Assembly: GCA_027487315.1 (NCBI GenBank)
Contig: JAIYDW010000058.1
Span: 1-33,131, forward strand
DNA length: 33,131 nucleotides
Direction: 5' to 3'
DNA from: Verrucomicrobiaceae bacterium
GTDB lineage: Bacteria; Verrucomicrobiota; Verrucomicrobiia; Verrucomicrobiales; Verrucomicrobiaceae
Under the pieces are notes generated by a model. It saw only the letters and a program-made list of their open reading frames with translations. It made no database searches and was not told the DNA's origin. Shown piece by piece: positions 4,570-26,685 of this stretch. Positions within the stretch are counted from its first letter, which is position 1; each line of letters begins with the position of its first letter. A program made the position numbers and the translations under genes.

Positions 4570-4608
4570 CAACGGAGAGGGAGGAGCGAGGGGATCGAAA
4601 CGCTTGAC

Positions 4609-5607: not shown

Positions 5608-5661
5608 GTGTCCTATCAGTCGAGTCACTAATTTTTGCAACCCACGCGCCTGACAGGACAC
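5608..5661. terminator. Inverted repeat between convergent genes
   Basis: The arms GTGTCCTATCAG (5608-5619) and CTGACAGGACAC (5650-5661) pair over 12 positions with one mismatch, around a 30-nt loop. It sits between the stop of the GNAT gene (5579) and the stop of the convergent propeller gene (5661), where a bidirectional terminator would be expected. The loop is long and no clean U-tract follows on the plus strand, so it could be a repeat element instead. Confidence 0.4.
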
Positions 5662-8750: not shown

Positions 8751-8781
8751 CCGTAGCAGGCGTTCGCTCGTGTTGCTACGG
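8751..8781. terminator. Shared hairpin between convergent genes
   Basis: Perfect 8-bp arms CCGTAGCA (8751-8758) and TGCTACGG (8774-8781) enclose a 15-nt loop. The hairpin starts 22 bp after the NTF2-like stop and overlaps the TAG stop codon of the giant gene (8776-8778). Position and symmetry fit a bidirectional terminator. There is no strong U-tract on either side, so factor-independent termination is uncertain. Confidence 0.5.
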
Positions 8782-11700
8782 ATTGGGGAAGGTGAGGATG
8801 AGGGGGGAGGTGTTGGGGAGGCGCTGGAGGAAGAGGCCGCGGGTGGGGGCGAAGAGCGGGGTGGTGGTGAGGTCTTGGAAGGTGGCGTCGGATTGATTGA
8901 CCCAGCGGGTGCCTTGGGCGGTTTGCATGAAGAAGAAGGAATGGTAACCGGTGGTGCCGGGTTGGGTATCGCCGATCCAGAGGCGGAAGCGGTCTGAGGT
9001 GGTGGCGGAGGTGCCTGGGAGGAGTCCGGCGGTGGTGGTGAGGTTCAGGCTAGCGGGGCTGGCGGTGAAGGGGAATCCGGAGGCGATGAACTGGGTGCCG
9101 GGGCGGACGGTGAGGCGGAAGGTGTGGTCGCGGACGAGGCCGGTCCAGAGGAGGCTGACGGGGCTGCCGCGGCGATGGACGAGGAGGGCGCTGCCGGGGG
9201 CGAGGTGATCCGGGGCGGTGGTGTCTGTGGTCCAGGTGGCAGGGGTGCCGGACTGGAGCCAGCGGGCTTCGAACTGGTTGCTGGCGCTGTTGAAGAAGAG
9301 GGCGCGATCGGCGAGGTCGGCGTAGGCGCCGGCGGTGAGGATGGTGGAGGGCAGGAGGGTGTCGAGGGTCCAGTGTTCGCGGATGGCGGCGCGGGTGGTG
9401 CTCAGATCGGCAGGGAGTGCGGACGCGGTGTTGGTGGGCGCGGTGAGGTCGAGGACGAGGGTGTTGTCGTGGGAGATGAGTTCGTTGATCTCAAAGCGGT
9501 GGCCGTTATTGAGTTCGAGGTAGTAGTGGCGACCGGCGGTGAAGCTGGAGGCGATGTTGGCGGTGACTGGGAGGGTCACAGAGCCGTTGCCGGAGCGTTG
9601 GACGGAGCCGGAGTAGAGGGCGGGCTGGAGGAGGGGCTGGCTGAGGGATTGCTGGCCGGTGGCGAGGGTGGAGGTCAACCAGGCGTGGACGGGGGTGGTG
9701 GACTGGGCTTCAGGGGTGCCGTTGCCGTCGGCATCAAGGGCGACGGAGAGTCGGACGAAGCCTTGGGTCCAGCCGACAGGAGGAGCGAAGGTGAGGGTTT
9801 CCGTGCCATCTGGATTTTGGATGGTGGCGGCTGGGGATTCGAGGGCGGTCCAAGTGGATGGGCTGGCGGAGAGGTCGGCCAGGACTTGGAGCTGGTAGCG
9901 GGCGTCCTGGTGACCGTTGGCGGGGCGGGTGTAGGTGATGGACAGGCTGGAGGTGGTGTCGAAGGCGATGGAGGCGCGTTGTTCGAAGCCGCTGAGAGGA
10001 TCCAGTTCGAGGCCGTATTCGAGGAGGTTGGAGAGGCCGTCATTGTCGGCGTCTTGATCGGGAGCGGAGAGGCTGCCGAGGTCGTGACGGGACTGCCATT
10101 CGAGGTAGGTCTCGGGAGCTGCGGCGAGGGTGGTGTCGACGAGGGAATCGTCGCTGTCATCGGAGCCGCTGGCGAGCGTGAGGGTGTTGGTTTGGCGGAG
10201 GGAGTTCGGAGGCGGCGGGGCGGCGACGAAGGCGAAGTCGATGGTGAGATCGGTGTTGGAGTCGCCGAGGGTGGCGTTCATGGCGAGGGAGGCGCCGGTT
10301 TCGGTGCCGGTTTGGACGGGGGCGCTGCCGGGGGTCAGAGTGACAGGGGCGGAGTTGATGCCGGATTGAGCGGGGTTGGCATTGTCGATGCCGTCTTCGC
10401 TGAGGTTGTCGTCACCAGCGCCGGTGCCAGTGCGGGAGACTTGGCCGAAGAGCGGTCCGGGAGCGGGGGTGCCGCCGTTGAGGCTGATGAGCGGTTTGAA
10501 GTTGTCGGCAGCGACGTGGACGACGTATTGGCCGGAGGGCAGATTGGAGAAGAGGTAGCGACCGCCGCCGGACGTGAAGGTGGAGGCGAGTTGAGCGGCG
10601 GGGCCGGCGGGGTTGTTGGCATCGTAGAGAAGCATCCAGACGCCGTCGACACCTTCGCCCTCGTCGAAGCGGCCATTGGTGTTGAGGTCACGGTAGACGA
10701 TGTTGCCGACAGCGACGCGGTTGGTGTTGGAGGCGCCGACGAAGCCGAAGTCGATGGTGAGGTCGGTGATGGCTTCATTGGTGGCGTCGGAGTTCGCGAA
10801 GGCGCCGGTTTCGATACCAGGAGCGTTGGCGGCGGTGACGGGTTCGGAGCCGAAGGCGAGTTCGAAGGCGTTCGAGTTGGTGCCGGAGGAGGCGGGGTTG
10901 GCGCTATTGATGCCGTTTTCGTCGGCGTCATCGTCGGAGCCGTCGTCATTGCCGAAGCCGGGGATGGAGGTGGCGCCGAAGAGGACACCGGTGGAGGCGA
11001 AGGCGGAAGGAGGAATGTGGACGAAGTAGAAACCGGCGGTGGCGGTTTTGAGGAGGTAGGAGCCGTCGAGGGCGGAAACGGTCATGGCGACGGGGGTCGC
11101 GGAGAGGGGGTTGTCACCGACGCGGAAGAGGCGGAGGGGGACGCCGGAGATGGGTTGGTCGGTGCCGGCGGTGTAGCGACCGTCGAGGTTGACGTCATTG
11201 AAGACGAGGTTACCGACGGCGAGGGGTTTGGGGGTGAAGCCGAGGTCGACGGTGAGGTCGCTCATGTCATCCTGGGCGTTGTCACTGATGGCGAGGTAGC
11301 CGGTTTCGGTGGTAGCGTCGGTGGGGGCGGAGCCTGGGGTGAGGGTGAACCAGGGGGTGGCGACGCCGTTGATGGCGGGGTCACCGAGGTCGAGGCCGTC
11401 TTCGCCGACATCGTCGTCACCGGCGGTGGTGGGGACCGTGGTGGTGATGTTTTTGGAGGACTCGGTGTAGGCGAGAGGGGCACCGGGTTGGAACTCGGAG
11501 GCGGGGATGCGGACGCTGTAGGTGCCGGGGGCGACGCTGAAGCTGTAGGAACCGTCGGACTGGGTCTGGGTGGTGGCGGCCGGGGTGGTGGAGGTGGTGT
11601 CGTACCAGAGTTCGACATCGACGCCTTCGACGCCGGATTCGGTGGCGGGGTTAAAGATGCCGTCGCCGTTGATGTCGGAGAAGACGAGGTTACCGACGCT

Positions 11701-14700
11701 CATGCGAGCGGCGAAGCCGAAGTCGACGGTGGCGTCGAAGAGGTTGTCTTTGGCGTCGTCATCGGAGCCGAACAGACCGCCTTCCTCGATTCCGACGGGA
11801 GCGTGAGTGGGGGTGAGGGAGACGAGGGTGCTGGTGATGCCGTAGAGGTCGGGTTGGGGTTGGTCGAGGCCGTTTTCGCCGAGGTCATCGTCGCCGGCGG
11901 TGGTGCCGGTGAGGCTGAGGAGGCCGAAGAGGGGGGCGGTTTCGAGGAATTGGGTGTAGGGGATGTGAACGTAGTAGAAGCCGGGACGGAGGTCATTGAA
12001 GGCGTAGCGGCCGAGGGTGTCGGTGGTGGTGGTGGCGAGAGGGAGGTTCCAGCCGGGGAGGGAGCCGTTGGGGTAGAGTTCGACCTGGACGGCGGGGACA
12101 CCTTCGCCAGCGTCGGCGTGGTTGTTGCCGTTGAGGTCGATGAAGACGAGGTTACCGAGGCCGACGGATTCGTAGAAGCCGAAGTCGAAGGTGAGGTCGT
12201 GGTTGCTGTCAGCGAGAGCGTCGAGGTAGGTGCCTTCACCGAACTCACTGGAGTCGTTGGTGGGTTCGGTACCGAGGGCGAGGTTGAAGGGGGAGGAGCT
12301 GATGCCGGTGGTGGCGGGGGTGGTGGAGTCGATGCCGTTTTCGTCGATGTCATCGTCGATGCCGTTGTCGGTGCCGTTGCCGGGGAGGGAGAAGAGGCTG
12401 GCGAGAGCGCCACCGGGGATGAACTGGGAAGCGGGGATGTGGAGGAAGTAGTCGCCAGGAGTCAGGCTGGTGAAGATGTAGAGGCCGTTGAGGTCGGTGG
12501 AGGTGGTGGCGAGAGGCGCGGCGGATTGAGGATCCTCACCGGCGAGGAAGAGTTGGATGGAGACGCCGGAGGTGCCTTCACCGGAGTCGAAGCGGCTGTT
12601 GCCGTTGAGGTCGCGATAGACGAGGCTGCCGACGCCGACGGTGGTGTTGTTGGGAGGGCCGAAACCGAAGTCGATGGTGAGGTCGAAGTTGTTGTCGTAG
12701 AGGTCATCATCGGTGTTTCGATAACCGGACTCGGAATTGAAGTTCATGGGCGAGGAGCCGGAGGAGAGGGAGATGACGGCGGTGGAGACGCCGTTGACGG
12801 CGGGGATGCCAGCGGTGATGCCGTCCTGGCCGGAGTCATCGTCACCGGAGGCGTTGAGGGCCAAGGGGGCGAGGTTGGCGAGGGAGGCACCGGTGCGGAA
12901 CTGGGTGGCAGGGATGTGGACACGATAGTCTCCGGCGGAGAGGGAGCCGAAGAAGTAGTGGCCATCGGCGGCGGTGGTTTGGGTGAAGACAGGGACGTCG
13001 ACGCCGGGGGTCTGGCTGGCGCGGTAGAGTTCGACGCGGACGCCTGCGATGCCTTCACCGGAATTGTAGGTGCCATCATTGTTGAAGTCGACGAAGACCA
13101 GGTTGCCGAGGCCGACGGGGTTTTGGAAGCCGAAGTCGATGGTCAGGTCGACAGCGGAGTCGAAGTCGTCGTCGCTGCTGGCGTTGACGCCGGTTTCGCC
13201 ATCGGAGACGGTGGGGGTGTTGCCCGGGATGAGGGTAACGAGGCGGCTGGTGATGCCGGTGAGGGCGGGGTTGACGGCGTTGATGCCGTCTTCACCGACG
13301 TCATCATCGCCAGCGAGGCCTTCGGCGATGCTGACGGCGCGGAAGAGCGGCATGCCGGAGTCGAACTGGGAAGCGGGGATGTGGACGCGGTAGTTGCCGG
13401 CGGGGATGAGGTCGAAGAGGTAGGTGCCGCCGGATTGGGTGGTCGTGGTCTTGAGCGGGGTATTGAAGCCTGGGGTTTGGTTTTCGCGATAGAGTTCGAC
13501 GAGGACGCCGGAGACGCCTTCACCGGCATCGGCGCGGCCGTTTTCGTTGGCGTCGAAGAAGACCATGTTGCCGAGGCCGACGGAGCGGAAGAGGCCGATG
13601 TCGATGGTGAGGTCGGAGGAGGAGTCGAAGGCGTCGTCGGAGCTGGCGTCGGTGCCGGTTTCACCGGTGGTGGCGGTGGGGGCGCTGCCGAAGGCCATGA
13701 CGAAGTCCTGGGAACGAACGCCGGTGTTCCAGGGTTCGGAGGTGGCGAGGGAGTCCTCACCGACGTTGTCGTCACCTGGGACGGTGCCGGGGATGGGGAA
13801 GGTGGCGTTGAGGAGGCCGGAGGGAGTGAACTGGTCTTTGGGGAGGTAGACGAAGAAGGTACCCTGCCAGACGATGCTGAAGAGGTAGCGGCCACCGTTG
13901 GCGGTGGTGGTGGTGAGGAGGGGAGGATCGGTGAGGGGATTGTCACCGGCGTAGAAGAGCTGGACCCGGATGCCATTGACGCCTTCACCGGAGTCGGCGC
14001 GGCCGTTGTCGTTGTTGTCGACGAAGACGAGGTTACCGACACCGATGGAGCCTGGGGCGACGAAGCCCATGTCGAGGGTCATGTCGGCGTTTTCGTCGGG
14101 GAAGGAGTCGTCGAGGTTACCGCCGCGGCCGAACTCGCCATTGACGCCACCGAGGCCGGAGCCGACGGGTTCGTCGCCAGCGGCGAGGGTGACGAGAGGG
14201 CTGCGGGCTTCGGTGCCGCCGCCGAGGAACTGGACGGCGTTGGAGTCGTCATCGATTTGGTCATCGGAGTAGGCGCGGACGGGGCTGGCGAAGGGAGCGG
14301 CGTTGAGGGGGCCACCGACGATGAAGTTGGAGTTGGGGATGATGACTTGGTAGCGACCGCTGGGGTAGCCGAGGAAGGTGTAGTGACCGGCGACGTTGGA
14401 GGTGGTTTCAGCGACGTAGACTTCAGCGCCATTGCCGACGTCACCGTCGATATCACGCCAGAGTTGGACTTTGACGGTGCCGAAGCCGTTTTCGGTGGCG
14501 TCGATGCGGCCGTTGGAGTTGGAGTCGCCCCAGAGGGTGGAGCCGATGCCGACGCCGCTCCAGATGCCGAAGTCGATGGAGAGTTCGGTATCGGGGTCGT
14601 TGTCACCGTCGGCGATGGATTCGAGGCCTGGGGCGAGGGTGATGATGGGGCTGAAGAGAGGGGTGCCGGGGCCGCCGGGTTGGGCGCCGTTGTTGTCGTT

Positions 14701-17700
14701 GTTGACGCCGTTGTCGGCGGTGACGGGGGTGCCGCCGGTGACGCGGAGGGTGGAAGGAGGGGTGAGGCGGATGTAGACGGGGCCGACGGGGAGGTTGTCG
14801 AAGCCGTAGGCGCCTTGGGAATTAGAGACGACGGAGGTGATGAGGGTGTCAGCGTTGAGGCCGGTGCCGCCGATGGCGAGGTCGGCGCCGGGGTTGAAGG
14901 CTTCGAGAGTGACGCCAGAGACGCCGAGTTCCCAGAGGCTGCGGATGCCATTGTCGTCGGTGTCATTGAAGACCAAGTTACCGACGGTGATGCCTTTGAT
15001 GACGGAGGTGTAGGCGCGGGTGACGGAGCAGCCGTAGGCGTCAGTGGCGCGGAGGGTGAAGTTGTAGGTGCCGATGGCGGAGGGGGTGCCGGAGAGGGAG
15101 CCGGCGGTGGTGAGGGTGAGGCCTGGAGGGAGGGAGCCGGAAGCGAGGGTCCAGTTGTAGGGAGCGGTGCCGGTGGTGGCGGAGAAGGTTTGGGAGGCGG
15201 CAGCGCCGAGGTACCAGGTGGGGAGGGCTGGGGTGGAGATGGCGACGGCTGGGCAGACGGCGGTGATGAGGTAGTCTTCGACTTCACCGTCGGTGGCGAC
15301 GCCGAGGGAGTTGGTGAGAGAGAAGGAAGTGAGGCGGACGCGAACGCCGAGGGGGCGGTTGAGGACGGCGCCGATGGGGACGGTGATGGTGTAGGCGCGG
15401 GAGCCGGTGATGGTGGAATTGTTGACGAGGCGCTCGCCAACGTCTTCGAAGCTACCGTTGCTGTTCCAGTCGATCCAGAGGTTACCGCGGGCGGTGACGC
15501 CGATGGTGTTGGTGACGGAGATGGTGGCGGTGACGGAGGAGCCGGCGACGATGGTAGTGGGGAGGGTGAGGCCGTCTTCGTCGGAACCATCACCATCAGC
15601 GAGGAAGCCGGGTTGGCCGTCGGAGTCTTCGTCGATGTTGGTGCCGAGGCGGAAGCCCGGGCGGATGGAGTGGCGGGGGCCGTTTTCGCTAAAGCGGGTG
15701 AGGTGGTCGGCGGTGGCGGCGGTGGTGTTGGCGGAGGTGCCGGTGAGGGAGTCGGCGAGGTCACCGTAGTCCCAGCGGCCTCTGACGAGGAGGGTCATGG
15801 GGCGATCGGTGACGCAGAAGCCGAGGGGGTCAGTGGCGCGGACGGTGAAGGAGTAGGTGGCGGGAGCGCCGGTGATGGTGCCGGAGAGGAGGCCGGAGGA
15901 GGGGTTGAGGGTGAGGCCTGAGGGGAGAGAGCCGGAGGAGATGCTCCAGGAGTAGGCGGCCGCGACGCCGGTGGCGGTGAAGGTTTGAGAGTAGTTTTCC
16001 CAGTGCCAGGCATCAGGGAGGGCGGGGCCGGCGGGGGTGACGACGGGGTTGGGGCAGGTGACGGAGAGGGTGTAGTCACGGGTGCCGATACAACCTTGGT
16101 TGTCACGGGCTTCGATGCGGAACCAGTAACTGCCCTGGTTGGCATTGATGGTGCCATTGATGACGCCACCGCTGGAGAGAGTGAGGCCTGTAGGGAGGCT
16201 GCCGGAGCTGATGCGGAAGGTGCGGGGGGCGACACCGCCAGTGGCGACGAAGGCTTGGGTGTAGGAGCCGTAGACAGCGCCCGGGAGGACGGTGGTGGGG
16301 CTGATGGAGACGGTTGGGCAGGGGCGGAGACCGATGTCGATGGTGTCATCGGTATTGGTGGTGCCAGCGGAGCCGGGTTCACCGCCGGCGGTGAGGAGGA
16401 TGACCGGGGAGATGATGTCATTGCCAGCGGAGCCGAGCTGGATGCCGTTGCTATCGTCGTTCACACCGTTGTCCAGGTTGACGGAGGTGGTTGAGGCGAG
16501 GGGGTGGGTGCTGGGCGGGGTGATGCGGACGTAGTAGCGGCCCGGGGTGTAGGTGCGGAAATTGTAGAGGCCGGAGCTGTCGGTGGTGACGGTGGTGACG
16601 AGGGTGTCAGCGGCGGAGCCGGAGCCGCCGAAGGCATTGTCGGAGCCTGGTGAGAAGAGGCGAACGGAGATGCCGGAGATGCCGGATTCGGTGGTGCCTT
16701 TGAGGCCGTCATTGCTGGAGTCATTCCAGATGAGGTTGCCGAGGTTGAGGCCGGACCAGAGGCCGAGGTCGACGGTTAGGTTGGTGTTAGGGTTGGTGTC
16801 GCCATCGGTGATGGACTCGGTATTGACGGCCATGTTGATGACGGGGCTGGAGACGGTGGTGCCTGGACCGCCGGACTGGAGGGCGTTGCTGTCATTGTCG
16901 ACGTCATTGTCGAGGGCGACGGGGGTGCCACCGGTGGAGGGGAGGTTGGAGGGCGGGGTGATCTGGACAAAGTAGTTTCCGGGCCAGAGACCGGGGAAGG
17001 AGTAGGAGCCATCGGCGAGGGTGTTGACGGTGCCGATTTGCTGGCTGGTGGCGGAGTCAAAGAGGCGGACCTGGAGGGCGGAGATGCCGGATTCGGTGCC
17101 ACCGAGGAGGGCGTTGGAATTGAGGTCATTGAAGACGCGACCGCCGAGGGTCATGGGGATGGGGCGGTTGAGGAAGTCGCGATTGTTGATGTCGAGTTCT
17201 TCAACGGTGACGGCGATGTGGTTGATGCCATTGGCGGCGCCGTCGGCGTCGGTGATGGAGATCATGGTGTTAGGCAGGTCATGCTGGACGAGGAATTTGG
17301 CGGGATCTGAGATGGGGCCGAAGCGGTAGACGCCGAGGGCGTCGGTGACGAAGGTATTGAGCTGGGTATCTTCGGCGTCACGGAGGCCGTTGCCGTTGAC
17401 GTCGGTGAAGAGGCGGACGGTGACGCCTTGGACGGGGGTGTCGTCGACGGAGATGTCACCGGAGCGGTCGGCGTCGACGAGGACGCGGCCGCGGATTTGA
17501 GGGAGTTGGTAGTCTTCGAAGTCCTGTTTGGTGGGGAGGGCACCGGGGGCGACGGAGAGGCTGATGTTGGTGGGGACGCCGCCGTCGGCATCGGCCCGGG
17601 GTTTGTAGCCGAAGGGGACGGACTGGACGATTTGGAAGACGCCGGGGTCGAGGTTGTCGGCGCTGTAGAGGCCGGAGGCGTCGGTGGAGCGGGTGGTGAC

Positions 17701-20700
17701 GATATCATCTGCGGTGCCGATGACGTCGTCATTGCCGCCGTAGGTGAGGCGGACGATGACATTGGAGAGGGGTGTTTCGCCGGGGTCAGCGATGCCGTTG
17801 CCGTCGCCGAGGACGACGGAGCCGGAGATGGTGCTGGGTTTGAGGGCGAAGCCGAAGACGAGATCGGAGACGTTGCCGGTGATGGCGGCGAGGTTGGCGC
17901 GGCCGTCGGTGGGGCCATTGGGGTCGAGGGTCGGGGTGTAGGCGCGGCGGGGGAGGGAGCGGTCGAGGACGAAGAGGAGGATGTTGGCGGCGGTGGGGAC
18001 GCCGTTGGAGATGAAGGCGCCGGTGGATTCGGAGGTGGCGACGCGGTATTCGTCGATGGTGCCGTCTTTATCGAGGTCGATCTCGATGCGGACGCTGGCG
18101 CCGGCGAGTCCGGGTTCGGTGCCGTCGCGGACGCCGTTGGAGAAGGTGCCGCCACCGGCGCCGCTGTCGTCGAAGATGAGGCCGCTGAGGGTGTGGGTGG
18201 TGCTGGAGTGGCGGTAGCCGAAGATTTGGGTGAGGTTAGGCGTGGTGCTGGTGACGACGGGCCTGGAGCGGCCATCTTTGACGGCGTCGGGATCGGCGGT
18301 GGGGGTGGTGTTGTAGCCGAGAGGGAGGGAGGAGTGGAGGACGACGACGGTGAAGGTGCCGTCGGGGAGACCGGTGAAGCGGTAGTCACCGATGTGGTTG
18401 GTGGTGGTGGTGAAGAGGAGGTTGGTGCCGGCGGAGTCGAAGAGTTGCACGGTGATGTCCGGGATGCCATCCTCACCGCGGTTTTGGGCGCCGTTGCTGT
18501 TGTCGTCGTTGAAGACGCGGCCACCGAGGGTGCCGTTGTGGTCGCGACCGAAGTCCATGCCTTCGAGTTCCTTACCGGGGAGGACATCGAGGGTGTAGGC
18601 GAGGGGAGTGGTGGCGCGGGTGAGGCCTGCCGGGAGGTCTGGATCCGCGGCGTTGTAGGTGAGGGTGTAGGAGCCTGGGGCGACGAAGTGGGTGTACTGG
18701 CCGCCGGCGTTGGTGGCGACGGTGAGGTCGACGGCATTGCCACGGATGTCGGTGCCGATGATGCGGACGTCGACATTGGGGAGGCCGGGTTCGGCGGGGT
18801 CTTTGAGGGTGCTGCTGTCGACGTCATGGTAGACGTAACCTTCGATGATGGATTTCTCGATGAAGCCGTAGTCGGCGTTGAGGAAGGCCTGGGCGGGGGC
18901 GAGGTTGACGGCGACGCCTTCGGGGGTGGTGGGGAGCATGAAGCCGACGAGGCCGGCGTTGGAACTGGAAGGAGGAGCGATGACACTTTGTTCTTCGGCT
19001 TTGGCGACGTAGCGGCCTGGGGGGAGGAAGGGGAAGAGGTAGAAGCCGGAGGCGTTGGTGCTGGTGATGCCGTAGACGGGTTCGAAGGGGCCGGCGATGC
19101 CGTCGGCGTTGGAGTCGATGATGAGTTGGACGGTGGCGTCGTTGATACCGACTTCGTCATCGGCGTTGCCGGCGATGCCGTCGACGCCGTTGGGGTTGCG
19201 GATGCCGTTGCCGTTGAAGTCGTAGTAGATGAAGTCGCCGATGGAGGCGGTGTGGCGGTAGCCGAAGTCGGCGGTGAGGAAGGTGGTGGAAGTTCCGAGG
19301 TTGTCGATGAAGAGGGAATCGCTCATGCCGAAGAACTTCAGGTCCGCTCCCGCAGTGTCCACGCGGAAGCCATGGATGGGCTGAGTGGTGCCGAAGGTGG
19401 CAGCCTTGACGACGGTGATCCAGTAGGGTTGGGAAGAGATGTAGGGGGAAGCGAGGCCGGTATTCCAGTCGTAGGGTGAGCCGATTTGGATGGTGTTGCA
19501 ATTGGGGATCACGTTGCCTGTGGCGTCGAGAGGCGTGAGGCGGGCGGTGGAATTGCCGAAGCGCTCGGAGATAACGACGTAATCGTCAGAATTGTAGGGC
19601 AGATCGAAAAGCATGTCGTATTCCGAGCTGCCGTCAGGCGTGCCCTCACCGCGGTCATCAGCGATGTAATTGTTGAGGTCGGAATTGGATGCGGTGGATG
19701 AGGCGACTTTGGTAAAGTTGTCCGCACCGAGAGAGGCGATGGACTGGAAACCGCCTGAGATGACGACGCCGTAGTTGGTTGAGGAGGGGCTGATGGAGAC
19801 ATTGCGGACGATACCGCCTCCGCGGTTGACAACGTTCAGGCTCTTGGGGATGCCGCTATCAAGGATGTTGAGTTGGGTGAGTTCGAGGGTGTCGGCGGTG
19901 ACCAGGGTGACAGAGGAGGCGGAGGAGGATTGGACGATGGGGGTGGTGCCAGCGCGGCGAATTTGGACACCCGTGATGGGGATGTTAGAGGTGCCTTTGG
20001 AGACGTTGAGTAGCGTTGAGGTGTTGGAGACGGGAGGGGCAGGAGGGATGCTTGTTGGGGTGAGGTTGACACTGACGACGCCAGTGAGAGGAATGTGTCC
20101 GCTGACGAGAGCGACACCGGGAGTGGCGGGTTCGTTGGTGACGAGGTAGCGTCCGGCGTAGAGGTTCTCGAATAGGTAGCGACCATCAGCGCCTGAGGTG
20201 GTGGAGGCGACGAGGTTTTCGTTGGAGTCGAGGATGCCATTGGCATTGGAGTCGGACCAAAGTTTTGCGATGGCGCCGGGGAAGCCGGTTTCGAGGACGT
20301 CGACGATGCCGTCAGCGTTGGAGTCGATCCAGACAAGGCCACCAATGGTGCCGGTGGCGACTTCGGGTGGGCGGGGGGCGACACCGAAGTCACAGGTGAA
20401 GGAGGACTGGCCGGCAGCGAGGGTTCGGGTGAGGCGGGTGGCCGTGGTGGCAGCGAAATCGAGAGGAAGCGTGACAACATCGATGACGACTTGGTGGGTG
20501 CCAGCGCCGACGCCGGAGAGGGTGTAGAGGCCCTGAGAGTTAGACGTGGCGTTGCGCTCGGTGGCGTCGAAAAGGCTGTTGTTGTTGGCGTCGATGAAGA
20601 CGCGGACGCCTGGGAGGCCGGGTTCGTCGGCGTCTTGGTTGCCGTCCATGTTGTAGTCGGCCCAGACGAAGTCGCCGATGGATTCGGAGAGGGAGGTGGA

Positions 20701-23700
20701 GACGGTATTGCTGAGGATGGCGCCGAAGCCGAGGTTGATGGTGGCTTGGTTGGTGATGATGGGATTCGGGGGAGGGGCGGTGACGTCGACCTGGTAGGTG
20801 AGGGTGGGGACGTAGATGAAGCTGTTGGAGTCGGTGGTGGGGAAGGTGGCGACGCCGGAGGTGAATTGGGCCCAGCGGAAGAGCCCGTTAGCGGGGCTGG
20901 TGCCGCCATTGATTCGGTAGGTCCAGGTGAAGGTGGTGCCGCGGTTGCCGATGGTGGAGGGGCCGGGGGTGGGGCCGGTGAGTTTGGTGGCGGTGAGGCC
21001 GGTGCCTGAGAGGGTGATGAAGGAGGGGTCTGGCGCGACGATGGACTCGATGTTGCGAGAGGAGGTGAGGGTGGTGGAGACGTTGACGATTTGGGCGTTA
21101 TTGATGACGGAGGCAGGGCCGAAAAGGCCTTCGGCGGTGGTGAGGGGCGGGTTGGGGTTGCGGTCGTGAGCATCCCAGAGGTAGATGAAGGGTTGTTTGG
21201 AGTTTTCACCGGTGTTGTCTTCCAGTTCGCGGTAGCCTTTCCAGATATTGTCCGACCAGCGGGTGACGACGAGGTCGAGGTTGTCGTCCTGGGCGACGAG
21301 CATGATTTCGTTGGTGTTGAGGTCGGGTTGGAGGATGAGGGAGTTGGCATCCGCACCGAGAGGGATGGCGTCTGCCTCAGCGGACCAGGTGCTGGTGGTC
21401 GGGGACCAGGTGACGTATTTGACGCCGGCGAAGTTGTTTTGGGAGTAAGCGGCGACGAGATCGCCGGACTGGCTTTCGAAGGCGACAGCGAGGGTGGGGG
21501 CATCCCGGGTATTGAGGTCGGTTTCGACGACGTTGCCAGCGCTCCAGGAGGAGCCGTTCCAGATGCAGCACCAGGCGTCGCTGCCATCGGTGATGACGCC
21601 GACAGCGATTCTGTTGCCGCCGGGGTCGGAGGCGGCGGTGAAATGGCGTTTACGGCCCATGCCAGAGGGAGCGGTGCGGGAGGCTTCGGCGGTCCAGGAG
21701 GAGCCGTTCCAGAGGCGGTAGTAGACGTGATTTTGGCCGTTTTTGCCATAGAGAGCCATGGCGCGGCCGGTGAGGTTTTCGTAGGCGACGGCGAAGTCGA
21801 AGATGTTGTTGTTGTCTGAGGTGCCTGGTGCGAGCTGGATGCTGGAGTTCCAGGAGGAGCCATTCCAGATGATGGCGTGTTTGGAGTAGTTCCAGTCCTC
21901 GATGACCAGGGCCATTTCGTCGCTGTCGGGTTTGGCGACCATTTTCAAGCCGGAAGGTTCGGCGCCGGTGTAGGAGGTGATGCTGACGGGAGTGGTCCAG
22001 GAAGTGCCGTTCCAGACACTGAAGCGAAGCCTTTGGCCGCTGGCTTGGTAGCGATCTGTCCAGACGAGGATGGCGTCGCCGCTGAGCTGTTCGTAGGCGA
22101 CGGCGACACCGACTTCGGAGGTGGTAGCGGCCCTGCCGAGGGGATTGAGGGGGAGGTTGGTCCAAGCGGAGCCGTTCCACATTTGACCGACGATGTTGTT
22201 TTCGGTTTGTTCGAGGATGCCGGCGATGATTTTTTCGTCACGCTTGCTGGAGGAAGCGCCGACGATGAATTCGAGGTCGGCGGCGAGGGCGGGGGTGGTT
22301 TGGGTGGCGTCGAAGGAGCCGCCGTTCCAGGTGGCGGTGCGGCCATTGAGGAGGCCGTTGCGTGCCCAGTGTGCGGCACCGCGGGAGTCAACGCCGCAAG
22401 CGTCGGCAGCGACGTAGGAGTATTGGACGTCGAGGTAGGGGACGTTGTTGATGGTGCTGTCGATGGAGAAGATCTGGGCGTCACCGGTGTCGGTGCCCAT
22501 GGTGATGATGCCGATGCCGCGGTTGGAGGAGGGGTTATTGACCCAGCCTTGGACGGTGTTTCTGAGGTTGGTGGAGGTGACGAGTTTGTAGCCGACGGTG
22601 TTGGGGGTGAAGGAACCGAGTGAGAGGGAGCTGTTGTAGTCGAGGGCGCTGAAGGTGGTGCCGGAGGCCCAGCGACCGGCGCCGGTGCCGTTGGGGTCAT
22701 TCCAAGTGGCGACACCGACGTCCCAGGCGGTGTTGAGGGGGAAGAGGTTGACGGTTTGGTTGCTACGTGTGTTGGCGACACGAAGGCCGACGGTGGCGGA
22801 GAGGACGGTAGCGCCGGCGGGAATTTCGGTGGTGAGGAAACGAATGAGGGCCTGGCGCTGGGTGGCGGCGGAAGAGGGGCGGAGGATCATGTTGCCACTG
22901 GACAACACGGTGCTGGCGCTATCGGCGCGGATGTAGGTGTCATCGACTGAGGCGTCGACTTCGATCCGGACGTTGCGGACGCAGGTGATGACGGGGACGA
23001 AGGTGTTGGCGACGGAGGAGCTGGTGCTACCGAGGTTCCAGGTGACGGTGTTGGAGGCGAAGGTGGCGCCGGTGGAGGCGGAACCGGAGGTGTAAGTGGT
23101 GCCGGTAGGGATGGTGTCGGTGACGGCGACGTTGGTGAACTGGCCGACTTGCGGGTAGTTGGCCTGGAGGGAGTAGGTGAGGCGGGAGCCTGGGGCGACG
23201 GTGCCGGTGGGGCTGACGGAGAGGCTGAGGACACGCTTGAGGGCGAAGTCGATGTTCAGATTTTCTTCGGAGGGGAGGACGGTGACGGCGATGTGAGGGG
23301 GAGCGAGGGCGAGGCCGCCGGGGAGGTCGGGGTCGGTGAGGTCGACTTCGGCGATGTAGTTGTCGCCGCTGAGGTCGGTGAAGAGGTATTGACCGCGGTT
23401 GTCGGTGACGACTTCGCGGAGGTATTCGCCGGCGCCGGGGGCTTTGTTGTTGTTGATATCGCGGTAGAGTTTGACGGTGACGCGGGGGATGGCGAGGTCG
23501 CCGGAGTCGAAGACGCCGTTGCGGTTGAGGTCTTGGAAGACTTGGTCGCCGATGGAGGCTGGGCGATCGGCGAAGAAGCCGAAGTTGCGGCCGGAGGTGT
23601 TGGCGGTGAGGCTACCGATGGCGATGCGAGCGGGGCTGCTGGGTTTGAAGGTGAAGGGGTTGAAGAAGGTGGTCAGAGCGGGGGCGGTGGTGCTGACGGA

Positions 23701-26274
23701 GACGACGTAGCTGAGGCCAGGGGCGATGTTGGAGAAAGTGTAGGCGCCGCCGGAGGCGGAGGTGGCAGTGGCGATTTGGATGTCCGGCGCATCGACGGTG
23801 CCGTTGCCGTTGGCGTCGAAGTGGAGGGTGAGGGGGATGCTGTTGATGACGGTGTCATTGGCGGCCTGGTAGATGCCGTCGTTGGCGAAGTCGGAGAAGA
23901 CGAGGCCGGCGATGGTGAGGGTGCCGAGGGGGCGGTAGCCGAAGTCGATGTCGAGGCGATCGGTGGAGTTGGTGAGGGAGAGTCTGGCGAGGCCATTGAG
24001 GGGGCCTTCGGGGTCGGCAGTGAGTTGGTAGCCGGAGGGGACGCCGCTGTTGACTCTGACGACGTAGTTGCCGGTGGAGGTGCCGCCGAAGTTGTATTCA
24101 CCCTGGGCGTTGGTGGTGGTGGTGCGGACGAGGACGCCGTCGGCGGGGTTGCCGTCGCTATTGGGGTCGGTCCAGAGTTGGAGTTCGACATTGGCGAGGC
24201 CGGGTTCGTTGGCGTCGCGGGTGGCGTTGCCGTTCCAGTCCTGATAGACGAGGTCACCGACTCTGGCGCCGCCGACGGTGACGGGGGCGATGAGGCCGGT
24301 GGCGTACACTTTGTCGTCGTAGTCGACGGCGTAGCGGTTGAAGTATTGGCCGGGGGCCTGGGTGGTGGAGAGTTCGGCTTCGAAGAAGATTTCGAGGGTT
24401 TTGCCGACGTCGAGGGCGCGATTGATGACGAATTCGGGGCGGCCGGGGACGGTGGCGGAGGGGACGACGACGGTGTTGGCGGTGCGGGCGCCATTGATGA
24501 ACTGGTCGACGGTGCGGGTGTAGCGGAAGCCGTCGGGGAGGAATTCGCGGACTTTCCAGGGGGAGCGGTTGGGGCAGGCGCCGTCGTTGCGGACGACGAT
24601 TTTATAAATGACTTTGCCGCCGGGGGCGGCGGTGGTGGGGGTGACGGATTTGTCGCCATACATGATGGCGATGAAGTCGGAGGTGACGGTGTCTGCGGCT
24701 TCTTTGGGGGTGGGGAATTCGTTGGAGCGGATGGTGGCCTTGTTGGTGATGAGGCCGGTGGTGTTGGCGCGGACGTTGATGCGGAGGGTGCGGGTGGATT
24801 GAGGGGGGAGGGTGCCGAGGTTCCAGCGGAGGGCGCTGGGGCCGGCGTTTTGAGCGGGGGTGGCGCTGACGAAGGTGAGGGAAGCGGGGAGGGGGTTTTC
24901 GAGGATGGCGTTGGTCATCGGCAAGTTACCGAGGTTGGTGATGCGGACGTCAAACGAGAAAAGCTCGTTCGGGAGAACGATCTTTTTGGAGGCGACCATT
25001 TCGATCATGGGGGAGGCACTCAGGCCGATGACGGAGGGTTTGTAGTAACGCCAGACGTGGTCTTTGTTGCCGTATTCGCCGCCGGCGTCACCACCGAAAG
25101 TTTCGCCGAAGAGTTGGAGGTAACCGTTCGGATCGAAGGGAGCGCCGGATTCGCCTGGGTTTTTGAGGATTTTGACTTTGATGCGGCAGTATTCGGGGCG
25201 GTAGAGTTCTAGGCCACCCCAGGAGAGGCGGAGGGCTTTGGGGCTGGTGGAATCGGTCCAGCTGGTGGTGGGAGGGAGGGGGCTGCTGGGGGAGACTGCG
25301 ACACCGTAGTTCTCGCCATTGACGCCGACGAGGTCGAGGGCGGAGGTACCGCGGCGACCGGGGGTGTCTTTGGCGATTTCGCTGCCGGCGTAGCGGATGC
25401 GTCTCCAGGGGCCGACCTGAAGGGAGTTGCGCATGCGGTTGGGGTTGGAGGGGTTAGCGTCCCAGTAGGCCTTGTTGAAGCCCCAGGCATAGCCGCTTTC
25501 GGGACCGGCGACTGGGGTGCCGGTGCCCCAGGGGGTGTTGCCGCGGCCATCGGGGTCGATGATGGGTTTGCCGGGGGTCTTGACGCCGAAGCCGAACATT
25601 TGGTGGGCGTCCCAGAGGGTGGTGGGAATGATGGTGTCGCCCTTGTTGTTCTGGATGGCGTTGTCGCTGGTGCCGGGGTTTTTGTCGATCCCGCCGCTGT
25701 TGACCCAAGACTGCCAGGCGGTGGCGGGGTCGGTGGAGTAGAAGATGCCGGTGTCGCCATAGAGACCTGCGAGGGTGCCCCAGGGGATGCATTTGAGGTC
25801 GACGGAGAGGGCGGAGATGCCGAGGACGTTGGGACCGAGTGTGAAACCGGCGAGGTCGATGGGTGCTTGGACGTCGATGGGGCCCTGGCCATGGACGAGA
25901 GGGGACTGGCCCTTCATGGCGAGGGGCTGGAAGGTGCCGTTGTCCTGGACGACGCCGTATTCGGCGCCGACGATTTGGCTACCGACTGGCACGAAAAAGG
26001 TGGAGTAACCGCCCGCACCGGTTTTGGTGCCGGCGTTGGGGGTGGCTTTGAGGATGACGCCGACGGTGTCACCGGCTTGCATGAGGGGTTGGTTGGCGGC
26101 GGCGCGGGACTGGACGAGGGCGGTGGTTTCTTTGTCGAAGATCAGGTAATTGATCTGCATGTCGAGGTTGTGAGACCAACCTGTGGCACCACCGAAGAGG
26201 AGAAGAGTCACCAGGGAAATCCAAGCACGCCTGAGGAGGCGTGGGAGCTGGGAGGGAAAGTTCTGGGTGTGCAT
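8776..26274 (-). CDS. Giant secreted mosaic protein, 5832 residues, 23 SdrD B-like units
   Basis: A single intact 17.5-kb frame. The ATG at 26274 gives a signal peptide (basic RLLRR, hydrophobic about 17-33, cleavage near GWS-HN). Order of parts: N-terminal cap 35-415 of unknown function; two DUF11-like domains about 420-665; SdrD B-like units from 671, 786 and 906; DUF11 1014-1093; DNRLRE-like domain 1103-1288; propeller with eight WNGSSW-like motifs about 1300-1690; DUF11-like 1715-1850; units from 1865 and 1976; an unrelated insert 2065-2340; eight units 2343-3177; Ig-like (He_PIG) domains 3317-3498 and 3677-3760 around a GEVED domain 3500-3673; ten units 3763-5350, the last eight of the extended 158-residue type; a DxDxDG calcium-loop segment 5406-5426; and a TIGR02597-like C-terminal module about 5520-5832. 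No LPXTG or PEP-CTERM signal is seen. I infer a very long Ca-stabilised surface or matrix fibre with binding modules. The receptor and export route are unknown. Confidence 0.93.
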   Translation of the reverse strand: MHTQNFPSQLPRLLRRAWISLVTLLLFGGATGWSHNLDMQINYLIFDKETTALVQSRAAANQPLMQAGDTVGVILKATPNAGTKTGAGGYSTFFVPVGSQIVGAEYGVVQDNGTFQPLAMKGQSPLVHGQGPIDVQAPIDLAGFTLGPNVLGISALSVDLKCIPWGTLAGLYGDTGIFYSTDPATAWQSWVNSGGIDKNPGTSDNAIQNNKGDTIIPTTLWDAHQMFGFGVKTPGKPIIDPDGRGNTPWGTGTPVAGPESGYAWGFNKAYWDANPSNPNRMRNSLQVGPWRRIRYAGSEIAKDTPGRRGTSALDLVGVNGENYGVAVSPSSPLPPTTSWTDSTSPKALRLSWGGLELYRPEYCRIKVKILKNPGESGAPFDPNGYLQLFGETFGGDAGGEYGNKDHVWRYYKPSVIGLSASPMIEMVASKKIVLPNELFSFDVRITNLGNLPMTNAILENPLPASLTFVSATPAQNAGPSALRWNLGTLPPQSTRTLRINVRANTTGLITNKATIRSNEFPTPKEAADTVTSDFIAIMYGDKSVTPTTAAPGGKVIYKIVVRNDGACPNRSPWKVREFLPDGFRYTRTVDQFINGARTANTVVVPSATVPGRPEFVINRALDVGKTLEIFFEAELSTTQAPGQYFNRYAVDYDDKVYATGLIAPVTVGGARVGDLVYQDWNGNATRDANEPGLANVELQLWTDPNSDGNPADGVLVRTTTTNAQGEYNFGGTSTGNYVVRVNSGVPSGYQLTADPEGPLNGLARLSLTNSTDRLDIDFGYRPLGTLTIAGLVFSDFANDGIYQAANDTVINSIPLTLHFDANGNGTVDAPDIQIATATSASGGAYTFSNIAPGLSYVVSVSTTAPALTTFFNPFTFKPSSPARIAIGSLTANTSGRNFGFFADRPASIGDQVFQDLNRNGVFDSGDLAIPRVTVKLYRDINNNKAPGAGEYLREVVTDNRGQYLFTDLSGDNYIAEVDLTDPDLPGGLALAPPHIAVTVLPSEENLNIDFALKRVLSLSVSPTGTVAPGSRLTYSLQANYPQVGQFTNVAVTDTIPTGTTYTSGSASTGATFASNTVTWNLGSTSSSVANTFVPVITCVRNVRIEVDASVDDTYIRADSASTVLSSGNMILRPSSAATQRQALIRFLTTEIPAGATVLSATVGLRVANTRSNQTVNLFPLNTAWDVGVATWNDPNGTGAGRWASGTTFSALDYNSSLSLGSFTPNTVGYKLVTSTNLRNTVQGWVNNPSSNRGIGIITMGTDTGDAQIFSIDSTINNVPYLDVQYSYVAADACGVDSRGAAHWARNGLLNGRTATWNGGSFDATQTTPALAADLEFIVGASSSKRDEKIIAGILEQTENNIVGQMWNGSAWTNLPLNPLGRAATTSEVGVAVAYEQLSGDAILVWTDRYQASGQRLRFSVWNGTSWTTPVSITSYTGAEPSGLKMVAKPDSDEMALVIEDWNYSKHAIIWNGSSWNSSIQLAPGTSDNNNIFDFAVAYENLTGRAMALYGKNGQNHVYYRLWNGSSWTAEASRTAPSGMGRKRHFTAASDPGGNRIAVGVITDGSDAWCCIWNGSSWSAGNVVETDLNTRDAPTLAVAFESQSGDLVAAYSQNNFAGVKYVTWSPTTSTWSAEADAIPLGADANSLILQPDLNTNEIMLVAQDDNLDLVVTRWSDNIWKGYRELEDNTGENSKQPFIYLWDAHDRNPNPPLTTAEGLFGPASVINNAQIVNVSTTLTSSRNIESIVAPDPSFITLSGTGLTATKLTGPTPGPSTIGNRGTTFTWTYRINGGTSPANGLFRWAQFTSGVATFPTTDSNSFIYVPTLTYQVDVTAPPPNPIITNQATINLGFGAILSNTVSTSLSESIGDFVWADYNMDGNQDADEPGLPGVRVFIDANNNSLFDATERNATSNSQGLYTLSGVGAGTHQVVIDVVTLPLDFAATTATRLTRTLAAGQSSFTCDFGVAPRPPEVATGTIGGLVWIDSNADGIVDVLETGFPGAIAKLWSDSNANGILDSNENLVASTTSGADGRYLFENLYAGRYLVTNEPATPGVALVSGHIPLTGVVSVNLTPTSIPPAPPVSNTSTLLNVSKGTSNIPITGVQIRRAGTTPIVQSSSASSVTLVTADTLELTQLNILDSGIPKSLNVVNRGGGIVRNVSISPSSTNYGVVISGGFQSIASLGADNFTKVASSTASNSDLNNYIADDRGEGTPDGSSEYDMLFDLPYNSDDYVVISERFGNSTARLTPLDATGNVIPNCNTIQIGSPYDWNTGLASPYISSQPYWITVVKAATFGTTQPIHGFRVDTAGADLKFFGMSDSLFIDNLGTSTTFLTADFGYRHTASIGDFIYYDFNGNGIRNPNGVDGIAGNADDEVGINDATVQLIIDSNADGIAGPFEPVYGITSTNASGFYLFPFLPPGRYVAKAEEQSVIAPPSSSNAGLVGFMLPTTPEGVAVNLAPAQAFLNADYGFIEKSIIEGYVYHDVDSSTLKDPAEPGLPNVDVRIIGTDIRGNAVDLTVATNAGGQYTHFVAPGSYTLTYNAADPDLPAGLTRATTPLAYTLDVLPGKELEGMDFGRDHNGTLGGRVFNDDNSNGAQNRGEDGIPDITVQLFDSAGTNLLFTTTTNHIGDYRFTGLPDGTFTVVVLHSSLPLGYNTTPTADPDAVKDGRSRPVVTSTTPNLTQIFGYRHSSTTHTLSGLIFDDSGAGGGTFSNGVRDGTEPGLAGASVRIEIDLDKDGTIDEYRVATSESTGAFISNGVPTAANILLFVLDRSLPRRAYTPTLDPNGPTDGRANLAAITGNVSDLVFGFALKPSTISGSVVLGDGNGIADPGETPLSNVIVRLTYGGNDDVIGTADDIVTTRSTDASGLYSADNLDPGVFQIVQSVPFGYKPRADADGGVPTNISLSVAPGALPTKQDFEDYQLPQIRGRVLVDADRSGDISVDDTPVQGVTVRLFTDVNGNGLRDAEDTQLNTFVTDALGVYRFGPISDPAKFLVQHDLPNTMISITDADGAANGINHIAVTVEELDINNRDFLNRPIPMTLGGRVFNDLNSNALLGGTESGISALQVRLFDSATSQQIGTVNTLADGSYSFPGLWPGNYFVQITPPSNLPSTGGTPVALDNDVDNDSNALQSGGPGTTVSSPVINMAVNTESITDGDTNPNTNLTVDLGLWSGLNLGNLIWNDSSNDGLKGTTESGISGISVRLFSPGSDNAFGGSGSAADTLVTTVTTDSSGLYNFRTYTPGRYYVRITPPSTHPLASTTSVNLDNGVNDDSNGIQLGSAGNDIISPVILLTAGGEPGSAGTTNTDDTIDIGLRPCPTVSISPTTVLPGAVYGSYTQAFVATGGVAPRTFRISSGSLPTGLTLSSGGVINGTINANQGSYWFRIEARDNQGCIGTRDYTLSVTCPNPVVTPAGPALPDAWHWENYSQTFTATGVAAAYSWSISSGSLPSGLTLNPSSGLLSGTITGAPATYSFTVRATDPLGFCVTDRPMTLLVRGRWDYGDLADSLTGTSANTTAATADHLTRFSENGPRHSIRPGFRLGTNIDEDSDGQPGFLADGDGSDEDGLTLPTTIVAGSSVTATISVTNTIGVTARGNLWIDWNSNGSFEDVGERLVNNSTITGSRAYTITVPIGAVLNRPLGVRVRLTSFSLTNSLGVATDGEVEDYLITAVCPAVAISTPALPTWYLGAAASQTFSATTGTAPYNWTLASGSLPPGLTLTTAGSLSGTPSAIGTYNFTLRATDAYGCSVTRAYTSVIKGITVGNLVFNDTDDNGIRSLWELGVSGVTLEAFNPGADLAIGGTGLNADTLITSVVSNSQGAYGFDNLPVGPVYIRLTPPSTLRVTGGTPVTADNGVNNDNNGAQPGGPGTPLFSPIITLAPGLESIADGDNDPDTELSIDFGIWSGVGIGSTLWGDSNSNGRIDATENGFGTVKVQLWRDIDGDVGNGAEVYVAETTSNVAGHYTFLGYPSGRYQVIIPNSNFIVGGPLNAAPFASPVRAYSDDQIDDDSNAVQFLGGGTEARSPLVTLAAGDEPVGSGLGGVNGEFGRGGNLDDSFPDENADMTLDMGFVAPGSIGVGNLVFVDNNDNGRADSGEGVNGIRVQLFYAGDNPLTDPPLLTTTTANGGRYLFSIVWQGTFFVYLPKDQFTPSGLLNATFPIPGTVPGDDNVGEDSLATSEPWNTGVRSQDFVMAFGSAPTATTGETGTDASSDDAFDSSSDLTIDIGLFRSVGLGNMVFFDANENGRADAGEGVSGVLVELYRENQTPGFNTPLKTTTTQSGGTYLFDLIPAGNYRVHIPASQFDSGMPLFRAVSIAEGLAGDDDVGEDGINAVNPALTGITSRLVTLIPGNTPTVSDGETGVNASSDDDFDSAVDLTIDFGFQNPVGLGNLVFVDFNNDGTYNSGEGIAGVRVELYRASQTPGVDVPVFTQTTAADGHYFFGSLSAGDYRVHIPATQFRTGASLANLAPLALNASGDDDSGQDGITAGIPAVNGVSTAVISLSSGSSPMNFNSESGYRNTDDDLYDNNFDLTIDFGFGPPNNTTVGVGSLVYRDLNGNSRFDSGEGTSGVSIQLFLAGEDPQSAAPLATTSTDLNGLYIFTSLTPGDYFLHIPASQFIPGGALASLFSLPGNGTDNGIDDDIDENGIDSTTPATTGISSSPFNLALGTEPTNDSSEFGEGTYLDALADSNHDLTFDFGFYESVGLGNLVFIDLNGNNHADAGEGVPAVQVELYPNGSLPGWNLPLATTTTDTLGRYAFNDLRPGFYYVHIPYTQFLETAPLFGLLSLTGTTAGDDDLGENGLDQPQPDLYGITSTLVSLTPTHAPVGIEEGGLFGSDDDAKDNLFDATVDFGFAARMSVGNLVFSDINGDGIFNPATESGVEGVDVELWYDTTSTTPAATTQTQSDGSYSFSVAPGTYSVRIPASEFQPGAPLAYTESSKNITTTVPTTAGDDDVGEDGLDLGDPAINGVATPWFTLTPGSAPTDATTETGYLAISDNAQDDMSDLTVDLGFTPKPLAVGNLVFNDVNLDGRYTAGTDQPISGVPLRLFRVGDNPLSATPVAMTVSALDGSYLLKTATAGFYFVHIPPSAFASTGVLFGATSIPGFGNDDGSDDDADENGINSANPASSGTNSNAFELAFGSEPVTAANAPGIETGAFANSDATNEAITDLTIDFGFVGASNTNRVAVGNIVYRDLNTNGRFDEGEGVDGVWMLLYDANNPAGPAAQLASTFTSGGGRYLFSNLPSGQYVVHVAADNFKPLISLNGGTPAPGPLFGQVSRTGTGAGDDNLSEDGIDNANPAQSGINSAPVTLTPGSAPVQTGTETGASLAMNATLGDSNTDLTIDFAFVAAPPPPNSLRQTNTLTLASGSDDSDDSLVDTTLAAAPETYLEWQSRHDLGSLSAPDQDADNDGLSNLLEYGLELDPLSGFEQRASIAFDTTSSLSITYTRPANGHQDARYQLQVLADLSASPSTWTALESPAATIQNPDGTETLTFAPPVGWTQGFVRLSVALDADGNGTPEAQSTTPVHAWLTSTLATGQQSLSQPLLQPALYSGSVQRSGNGSVTLPVTANIASSFTAGRHYYLELNNGHRFEINELISHDNTLVLDLTAPTNTASALPADLSTTRAAIREHWTLDTLLPSTILTAGAYADLADRALFFNSASNQFEARWLQSGTPATWTTDTTAPDHLAPGSALLVHRRGSPVSLLWTGLVRDHTFRLTVRPGTQFIASGFPFTASPASLNLTTTAGLLPGTSATTSDRFRLWIGDTQPGTTGYHSFFFMQTAQGTRWVNQSDATFQDLTTTPLFAPTRGLFLQRLPNTSPLILTFPNP
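10225..14046 (-). repeat. Eight tandem extended SdrD units (about 158 residues each)
   Basis: Within the giant gene, units begin at residues 4077, 4232, 4388, 4547, 4705, 4859, 5019 and 5188, a spacing of 154-169 codons. Each shows VGN(L/M/I)V(F/Y).D.N, EG(V/I).GV.(V/I).L(F/Y), a Y.F strand, a HIP.(S/T).F-type motif (HIP in six of the eight), an acidic GDDD.GEDG(I/L)-like loop and a closing D(L/A)T(I/V)DFGF. Short DNA stretches such as CCGAAGTCGATGGTGAGGTC recur in near-identical form at unit ends (for example near 10746 and 12664), so the array is repetitive at DNA level too. Confidence 0.85.
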
Positions 26275-26553: not shown

Positions 26554-26681
26554 GCGGACAGGAGTGTCCGCGCTCCTGGGGGTGCGCCTTTGGCGTTGGG
26601 GATGGGGGCAGACAGGAGCGTCTGCTTCACGGGGGGGCAGACAGGGGTGTCTGCTTCACGGGGGCAGACAGGGGTGTCGGC
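26554..26681. repeat. Array of four short palindromic repeats downstream of the dehydrogenase
   Basis: Four hairpin units of the form G(C)(A/G)GACA-GG(A/G)G-TGTC(T/C)GC lie at 26554-26571, 26608-26625, 26637-26654 and 26664-26681. Arms are 6-7 bp, the first and third are perfect, and the last has one mismatch. The last three are spaced 27-29 bp apart and share the flank TTCACGGGGG. The array ends 4 bp from the stop codon of the dehydrogenase (26686), so on the minus strand it is the immediate 3' untranslated region and may act as terminator or mRNA-end stabiliser. Confidence 0.65.
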
Positions 26682-26685
26682 TTCG

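Follow-up and report, generated by a model that had tools for sequence, protein, structure and literature searches.

A giant SdrD-like, predicted surface protein of a Verrucomicrobiaceae bacterium and its family with conserved ends and an expandable middle

Proteins with some resemblance to the one described here are known from several bacteria. Among them are the staphylococcal SdrD/MSCRAMM proteins (PF17210; PDB 10ps, 4jdz, 8vdk) and Giant1-5 of Apilactobacillus kunkeei, extracellular proteins of 3,000-8,000 residues with a distinctive N-terminal domain (PMC12863079). For the "giant genes" (>5 kb; Reva and Tummler, used in PMC5177795) of PVC bacteria, the expectation is that most encode surface proteins or PKS/NRPS. 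A further parallel concerns metalloproteins. The copper histidine brace is formed by an N-terminal histidine, freed by removal of the signal peptide, together with a second histidine (PMC10952591), and this combination has served as a search criterion for new metalloproteins (PMC12537917); the main text of the latter paper makes no mention of Verrucomicrobiota or SdrD.

We analysed a stretch of 33,131 nt (the window), which is the entire contig C127 of a Verrucomicrobiaceae genome. It contains a giant gene of 17.5 kb (17,499 bp; 8776..26274, minus strand) that starts with ATG and runs through 5,832 codons with 0 internal stops. The computed mass of its product is about 612 kDa, with pI 4.3 (4.28) and net charge of -308. 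The initial annotation had noted the unbroken frame, which our reading bears out, and had argued from it that the gene is under selection. This can now be measured: across the full gene, dN/dS is 0.18-0.21 against two orthologues. They come from independent MAGs of the same genus and have 5,832 and 5,578 residues; the G003 orthologue lacks one 255-residue block as a whole, its other indels being single-residue gaps. The frame is evidently under purifying selection.

With the staphylococcal proteins, the window protein has the B-domain sequence and presumably also the Ca2+-stabilised fold in common. Its B units match solved SdrD structures in PDB at 1.3e-30, and Pfam SdrD_B was found at E 3e-107 and 8e-148 on two overlapping halves of the protein. 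In contrast, no MSCRAMM N-terminal ligand-binding region was matched, and neither an SD-repeat stalk nor a C-terminal LPxTG is present. The NCBIfam full-length SdrD model gives 154-199 bits, matched in the B region, against a cut-off of 2,500. Since it has the B units but none of the other defining parts that were tested, the window protein is, judged by these models, not a member of the SdrD family in the strict sense. It falls in the same size class as the PVC giant genes, being intact and having a predicted signal peptide; in the passages of PMC5177795 consulted, Planctomycetes are treated by size and not as a family, and the family delineated below is not described there. Giant1-5, compared by description only, are extracellular and likewise very large, with a distinctive N-terminal domain, but belong to a Gram-positive host, and a beta-solenoid N-terminal domain is reported for them.

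An HMM iterated on the giant protein itself detected 23 B-like units (each with iE <= 3.3e-11), exactly the number counted in the initial annotation. In these units, D/N/E residues at Ca-loop positions are conserved in 101/103 cases, versus 90% for other D/N/E. Pfam further matched DUF11 three times, He_PIG three times and GEVED once, and NCBIfam model NF033679 (DNRLRE) gave 1.8e-15 at residues 1111-1283, so the DUF11, GEVED and DNRLRE parts proposed earlier are all matched by models. The propeller proposed for the following stretch holds in part: eight W[NS]x repeats, 49-55 aa apart, occupy residues 1316-1673, with no Pfam match and no convincing PDB match, and the putative propeller is read from this periodicity only. 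The layout is given in Table 1.

Table 1. Features of the giant gene and its predicted product (positions in the window; residues in the protein)
Feature	Positions	Strand	Description
Whole gene	8776..26274	-	5,832 aa; orthologues with dN/dS ~0.2
Signal peptide (predicted)	26173..26274	-	residues 1-34 (RLLRR..WISLVTLLLFGGATGWS, then H); hydropathy and (-3,-1) rule, family comparison
Head domain	25015..26172	-	residues 35-420; without Pfam or PDB match; family-defining
His35, predicted first mature residue	26170..26172	-	invariant across usable heads
His406 (head numbering H372), DHxWxY	25057..25059	-	only other invariant histidine, 27/27
Two DUF11 domains	24265..25014	-	residues 421-670
SdrD B-like units 1-3	23332..24264	-	residues 671-981; HMM from giant protein
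Third DUF11	22960..23247	-	residues 1010-1105
DNRLRE domain	22405..22959	-	residues 1106-1290; NF033679
Eight W[NS]x repeats of ~50 aa, propeller-like	21175..22404	-	residues 1291-1700
SdrD B-like units 4-5	20122..20682	-	residues 1865-2051
255-residue block	19297..20061	-	about 2072-2326; missing en bloc from G003 orthologue
SdrD B-like units 6-13	16510..19245	-	residues 2344-3255
He_PIG, He_PIG, GEVED region, He_PIG	14989..16491	-	residues 3262-3762
SdrD B-like units 14-23	10501..14988	-	residues 3763-5258; last eight with ~155-aa period
Tail module	8779..10089	-	residues 5396-5832, ends at stop; first part (~107 aa) common across the phylum, rest distantly TIGR02597-like

Comparison with related genomes places the giant protein in a Verrucomicrobiota family that had no name so far; its members have conserved ends and an expandable middle. 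The head order consists of a signal peptide, a new domain of ~385 residues, two DUF11 domains, two or three B units and, in most cases, another DUF11, while a tail of ~440 residues at the stop codon is usual where the 3' end is present; the window protein has both this order and the terminal tail. The order is kept in every member reaching that far, with the exception of the C71 paralogue type, which is devoid of the second DUF11 (DUF11b). It was found in genera g1, g7, g8 and g9 of the window's family as well as in families f2, f4 and f83, and within the window's genus the full module order is strictly conserved. In G472, from another family, the head is followed by a DNRLRE domain, as in the window protein. 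The head domain is present in three copies in the window's genome, in 18/115 relatives, in 24/387 genomes sampled from the order and in 2/387 from a sample of the phylum, one of the two being the window's own.

Lengths lie between about 1,800 and more than 12,000 residues (1.8-12.1 thousand), several frames being cut by contig ends. Open frames in g8 comprise 3.9-12.1 thousand residues; they contain as many as 35 B units, and their He_PIG domains number in the dozens. Further, g9 reaches 9.4 thousand, and other genera and paralogues 1.8-3.7 thousand. One odd giant gene has thus become a definable family, and its lengths form a natural series for the question how bacteria tune the reach of their surface proteins. 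The module order, which the initial annotation could not assign to any named protein, is kept in the genus, its head part recurs across several families, and no paper describing it was found. Giant SdrD-like surface proteins are known as a class, but the head-tail family is new to the open-licence literature searched, where we found no description of it.

The tail had been called TIGR02597-like, and this stands for its homologues more directly than for the window tail itself. The latter gives no match to TIGR02597 at E<=1; of 17 homologous tails, seven match weakly (best 1.2e-9), and the tail profile in turn detects, at 1e-19, proteins of the window's genome that are positive for TIGR02597. 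In view of both observations, the second part of the window tail is probably a distant relative of TIGR02597, even though the model does not match this tail. The window tail does not score above the curated cut-off of TIGR02597: all matches in its genome stay below 50 bits, and it is not listed among them. We found no paper on TIGR02597. A profile search of PDB with the tail returned nothing at E<=1, and an AlphaFold model from single sequence (pLDDT 38) was not used.

The tail ends at most one residue from the stop codon in 8/8 (near-)full-length locus matches. In the g8 giants of 9.9-12.1 thousand residues, a homologue of it forms the very C-terminus, and members in f2 and f4 carry it too; at least one giant frame, in G011 (9,393 aa), ends without it. 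It also closes giants devoid of the head (G010, 7,896 aa; G276, 5,159 aa) and, in the window's genome, Asp-box/sortilin-like, DUF1349/Big_12 and B-only exported proteins. Because it ends such unrelated secreted proteins, we infer that it may be a sorting or anchoring module, a candidate for a phylum in which the display of proteins at the surface is poorly understood. Known anchors were not found in the giant protein: there is no C-terminal TM stretch, no terminal LPxTG and no lipobox, the single LPxTG being internal (residue 3111). TIGR04183, the T9SS sorting domain, reached only 0.0067, at an internal position. A search of the genome for SprA gave no match, the control search being likewise silent. 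As for features of T1SS giant adhesins, no ABC protein of the genome exceeds the LssB cut-off, and a Sec-type signal peptide is present instead. No partner gene common to all family members was found; a search for Prosthecobacter-type tubulin yielded one FtsZ-like match only.

At the opposite end, a signal peptide is predicted (hydropathy and (-3,-1) rule) in every member with the N-terminus present, and in the window protein cleavage is predicted just before His35. A histidine adjoins the profile start in 29/29 usable heads; the count was originally listed as 30/30, but L088 is a stretch-boundary artefact duplicating the head in L050. The residues preceding this histidine agree with signal peptidase cleavage at this very point; most heads have AxA before HNL, the window GWS before HNL. 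The larger count comes from the hits of a profile, the profile's own rows being cut to begin at the following N, and is free of the HNL-anchor bias that affects the first histidine in our alignment of 27 heads, anchored on that motif. This alignment represents 13 clusters below 70% identity and extends down to 38% identity. In it, H372 of DHxWxY is invariant (27/27), as are the W and Y after it, among 71 columns invariant in all heads. The ~385-residue domain has no match in Pfam, and a PDB profile search returned nothing at E<=1; the AlphaFold model (pLDDT 29, from three near-identical sequences) was not used.

Taken together, these features make it fairly probable that the giant protein is an exported, Ca2+-stiffened rod, located at the surface or extracellularly and presenting the head domain. 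Sec signal peptide removal just before His35 would leave the head as a free N-terminus. The DUF11, SdrD-B, He_PIG and GEVED beta-domains would form the long rod, and Ca2+ bound in the DxNxNGxxDxxE loops of the B units would make it stiff; the assignment of fold and motif comes from homology, that of Ca2+ from analogy with SdrD. The C-terminal module would attach or sort the chain to the outer surface, a role paired with its occurrence at the end of unrelated exported proteins in the same genome. Evolution preserves head and tail, whereas the middle changes in both length and content. This would be expected of a stalk reaching out from the cell with tuned length, and the tip would do specific work, most likely adhesion or binding. 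The rod reading is supported by purifying selection on a frame whose orthologous set measures 5,832/5,832/5,578 aa, by signal peptides throughout, by conserved Ca-loop residues and by acidic pI. The surface or matrix role originally proposed is consistent with the signal peptides and module content, and would still be a deduction from them.

A different reading gives the head another task. It may be a histidine-brace-like metal-binding domain, the giant then being primarily not an adhesin but a long-stalked "angler" for metal capture or redox work; we consider this possible but unlikely. In its favour, the predicted mature N-terminus is histidine in 29/29 usable heads, mostly after AxA, and exactly one other histidine is invariant (27/27), with an invariant W and Y behind it. 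Histidine-brace and N-terminal-His metalloproteins such as LPMO, CopC, DUF4198 and Ang-1/2 are described with this arrangement (PMC10952591, PMC12537917): in them, as in the head, a histidine stands right after the signal peptide and is accompanied by a second. The likeness shown is one of histidine pattern. Genes for exported c-type haem proteins are also found upstream of the giant, PVC-type directly upstream in g1 (3/3) and CCP_MauG in four g8 members. On the other hand, the head matches no solved structure in sequence, two invariant histidines among 71 invariant columns are not decisive by themselves, and haem neighbours are missing from most other members. The two histidines hint at a possible metal site. 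That the head is a new N-terminal-His metal domain, freed by cleavage of the signal peptide and carried by a stalk that Ca2+ stiffens and that can reach 12,000 residues, acting as a surface "metal angler" or redox tip of extreme reach, must be rated unlikely, yet for a domain with no known Pfam or PDB relative it provides a precise and cheaply testable prediction. The CCP_MauG genes are di-haem and lie ~200 bp upstream of the giant (L081 2698-4653, L076 2206-4206, L073 3169-5142, and L103).

Should bulk alone matter, the giant would be a passive structural protein of a matrix or sheath, S-layer-like or filamentous. Repeat content of low specificity, acidic composition and very large size changes of the middle agree with this, but the sparse distribution (18/115, 24/387) and strong head conservation argue for a specific function, making the matrix reading rather improbable.

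The rod reading presupposes a real gene. In an assembly of 256 contigs, with the window being a full contig, repeat collapse is a fair worry. However, the longest exact repeat inside the giant gene is 23 nt and the B-like units have mean identity of 31%, so that short-read collapse is not expected; collapse or frameshift in the repeats is further contradicted by the equal length in an independent MAG. Although the MAG is fragmented and the C96 paralogue is broken into two frames (its G003 homologue being open over 3,156 aa), an artefact of assembly or annotation, or a decaying gene, is highly improbable given the 23-nt limit and the independent orthologue of identical length with dN/dS ~0.2. 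The giant gene is genuine and selectively maintained, not an assembly artefact.

The C96 paralogue (L026) itself is split into frames of 1,626 and 2,132 aa, by decay or assembly error; its counterpart in G001 stops at 2,855 aa, and that in G003 has the tail. Between G000 and G003, dS of the giant gene falls as low as 0.01 over one part (residues 800-1200) and reaches up to 0.26 in others, which suggests recombination inside the gene between species. A 2,265-aa ORF lies antisense to the giant gene (9124-15921, plus strand). We do not regard it as a gene, since its length is not kept in the G001 orthologue, where antisense frames reach 1,291 aa at most, and ascribe it to GC-rich coding.

In the interval that separates the giant gene from the haem-protein gene upstream of it, a short palindrome, GCAGACA-NNNN-TGTCTGC, is present three times (26604-26684). 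Related copies occur at the same place in G003 and, in the window's own genome, on contigs C85 and C162, the element forming a small dispersed palindrome family. On the other side, an 842-aa DUF7453/NxxGxxAF-repeat gene (5661-8189, minus strand) has GC skew markedly below its surroundings. It is missing from the same place in G001, where a second SdrD gene follows the giant after 0.9 kb. In the window, positions 1-4572 (minus strand) encode another SdrD/DUF11 protein, the second one here. It runs off the contig and has at least 1,524 aa; its G001 counterpart has at least 1,535 aa.
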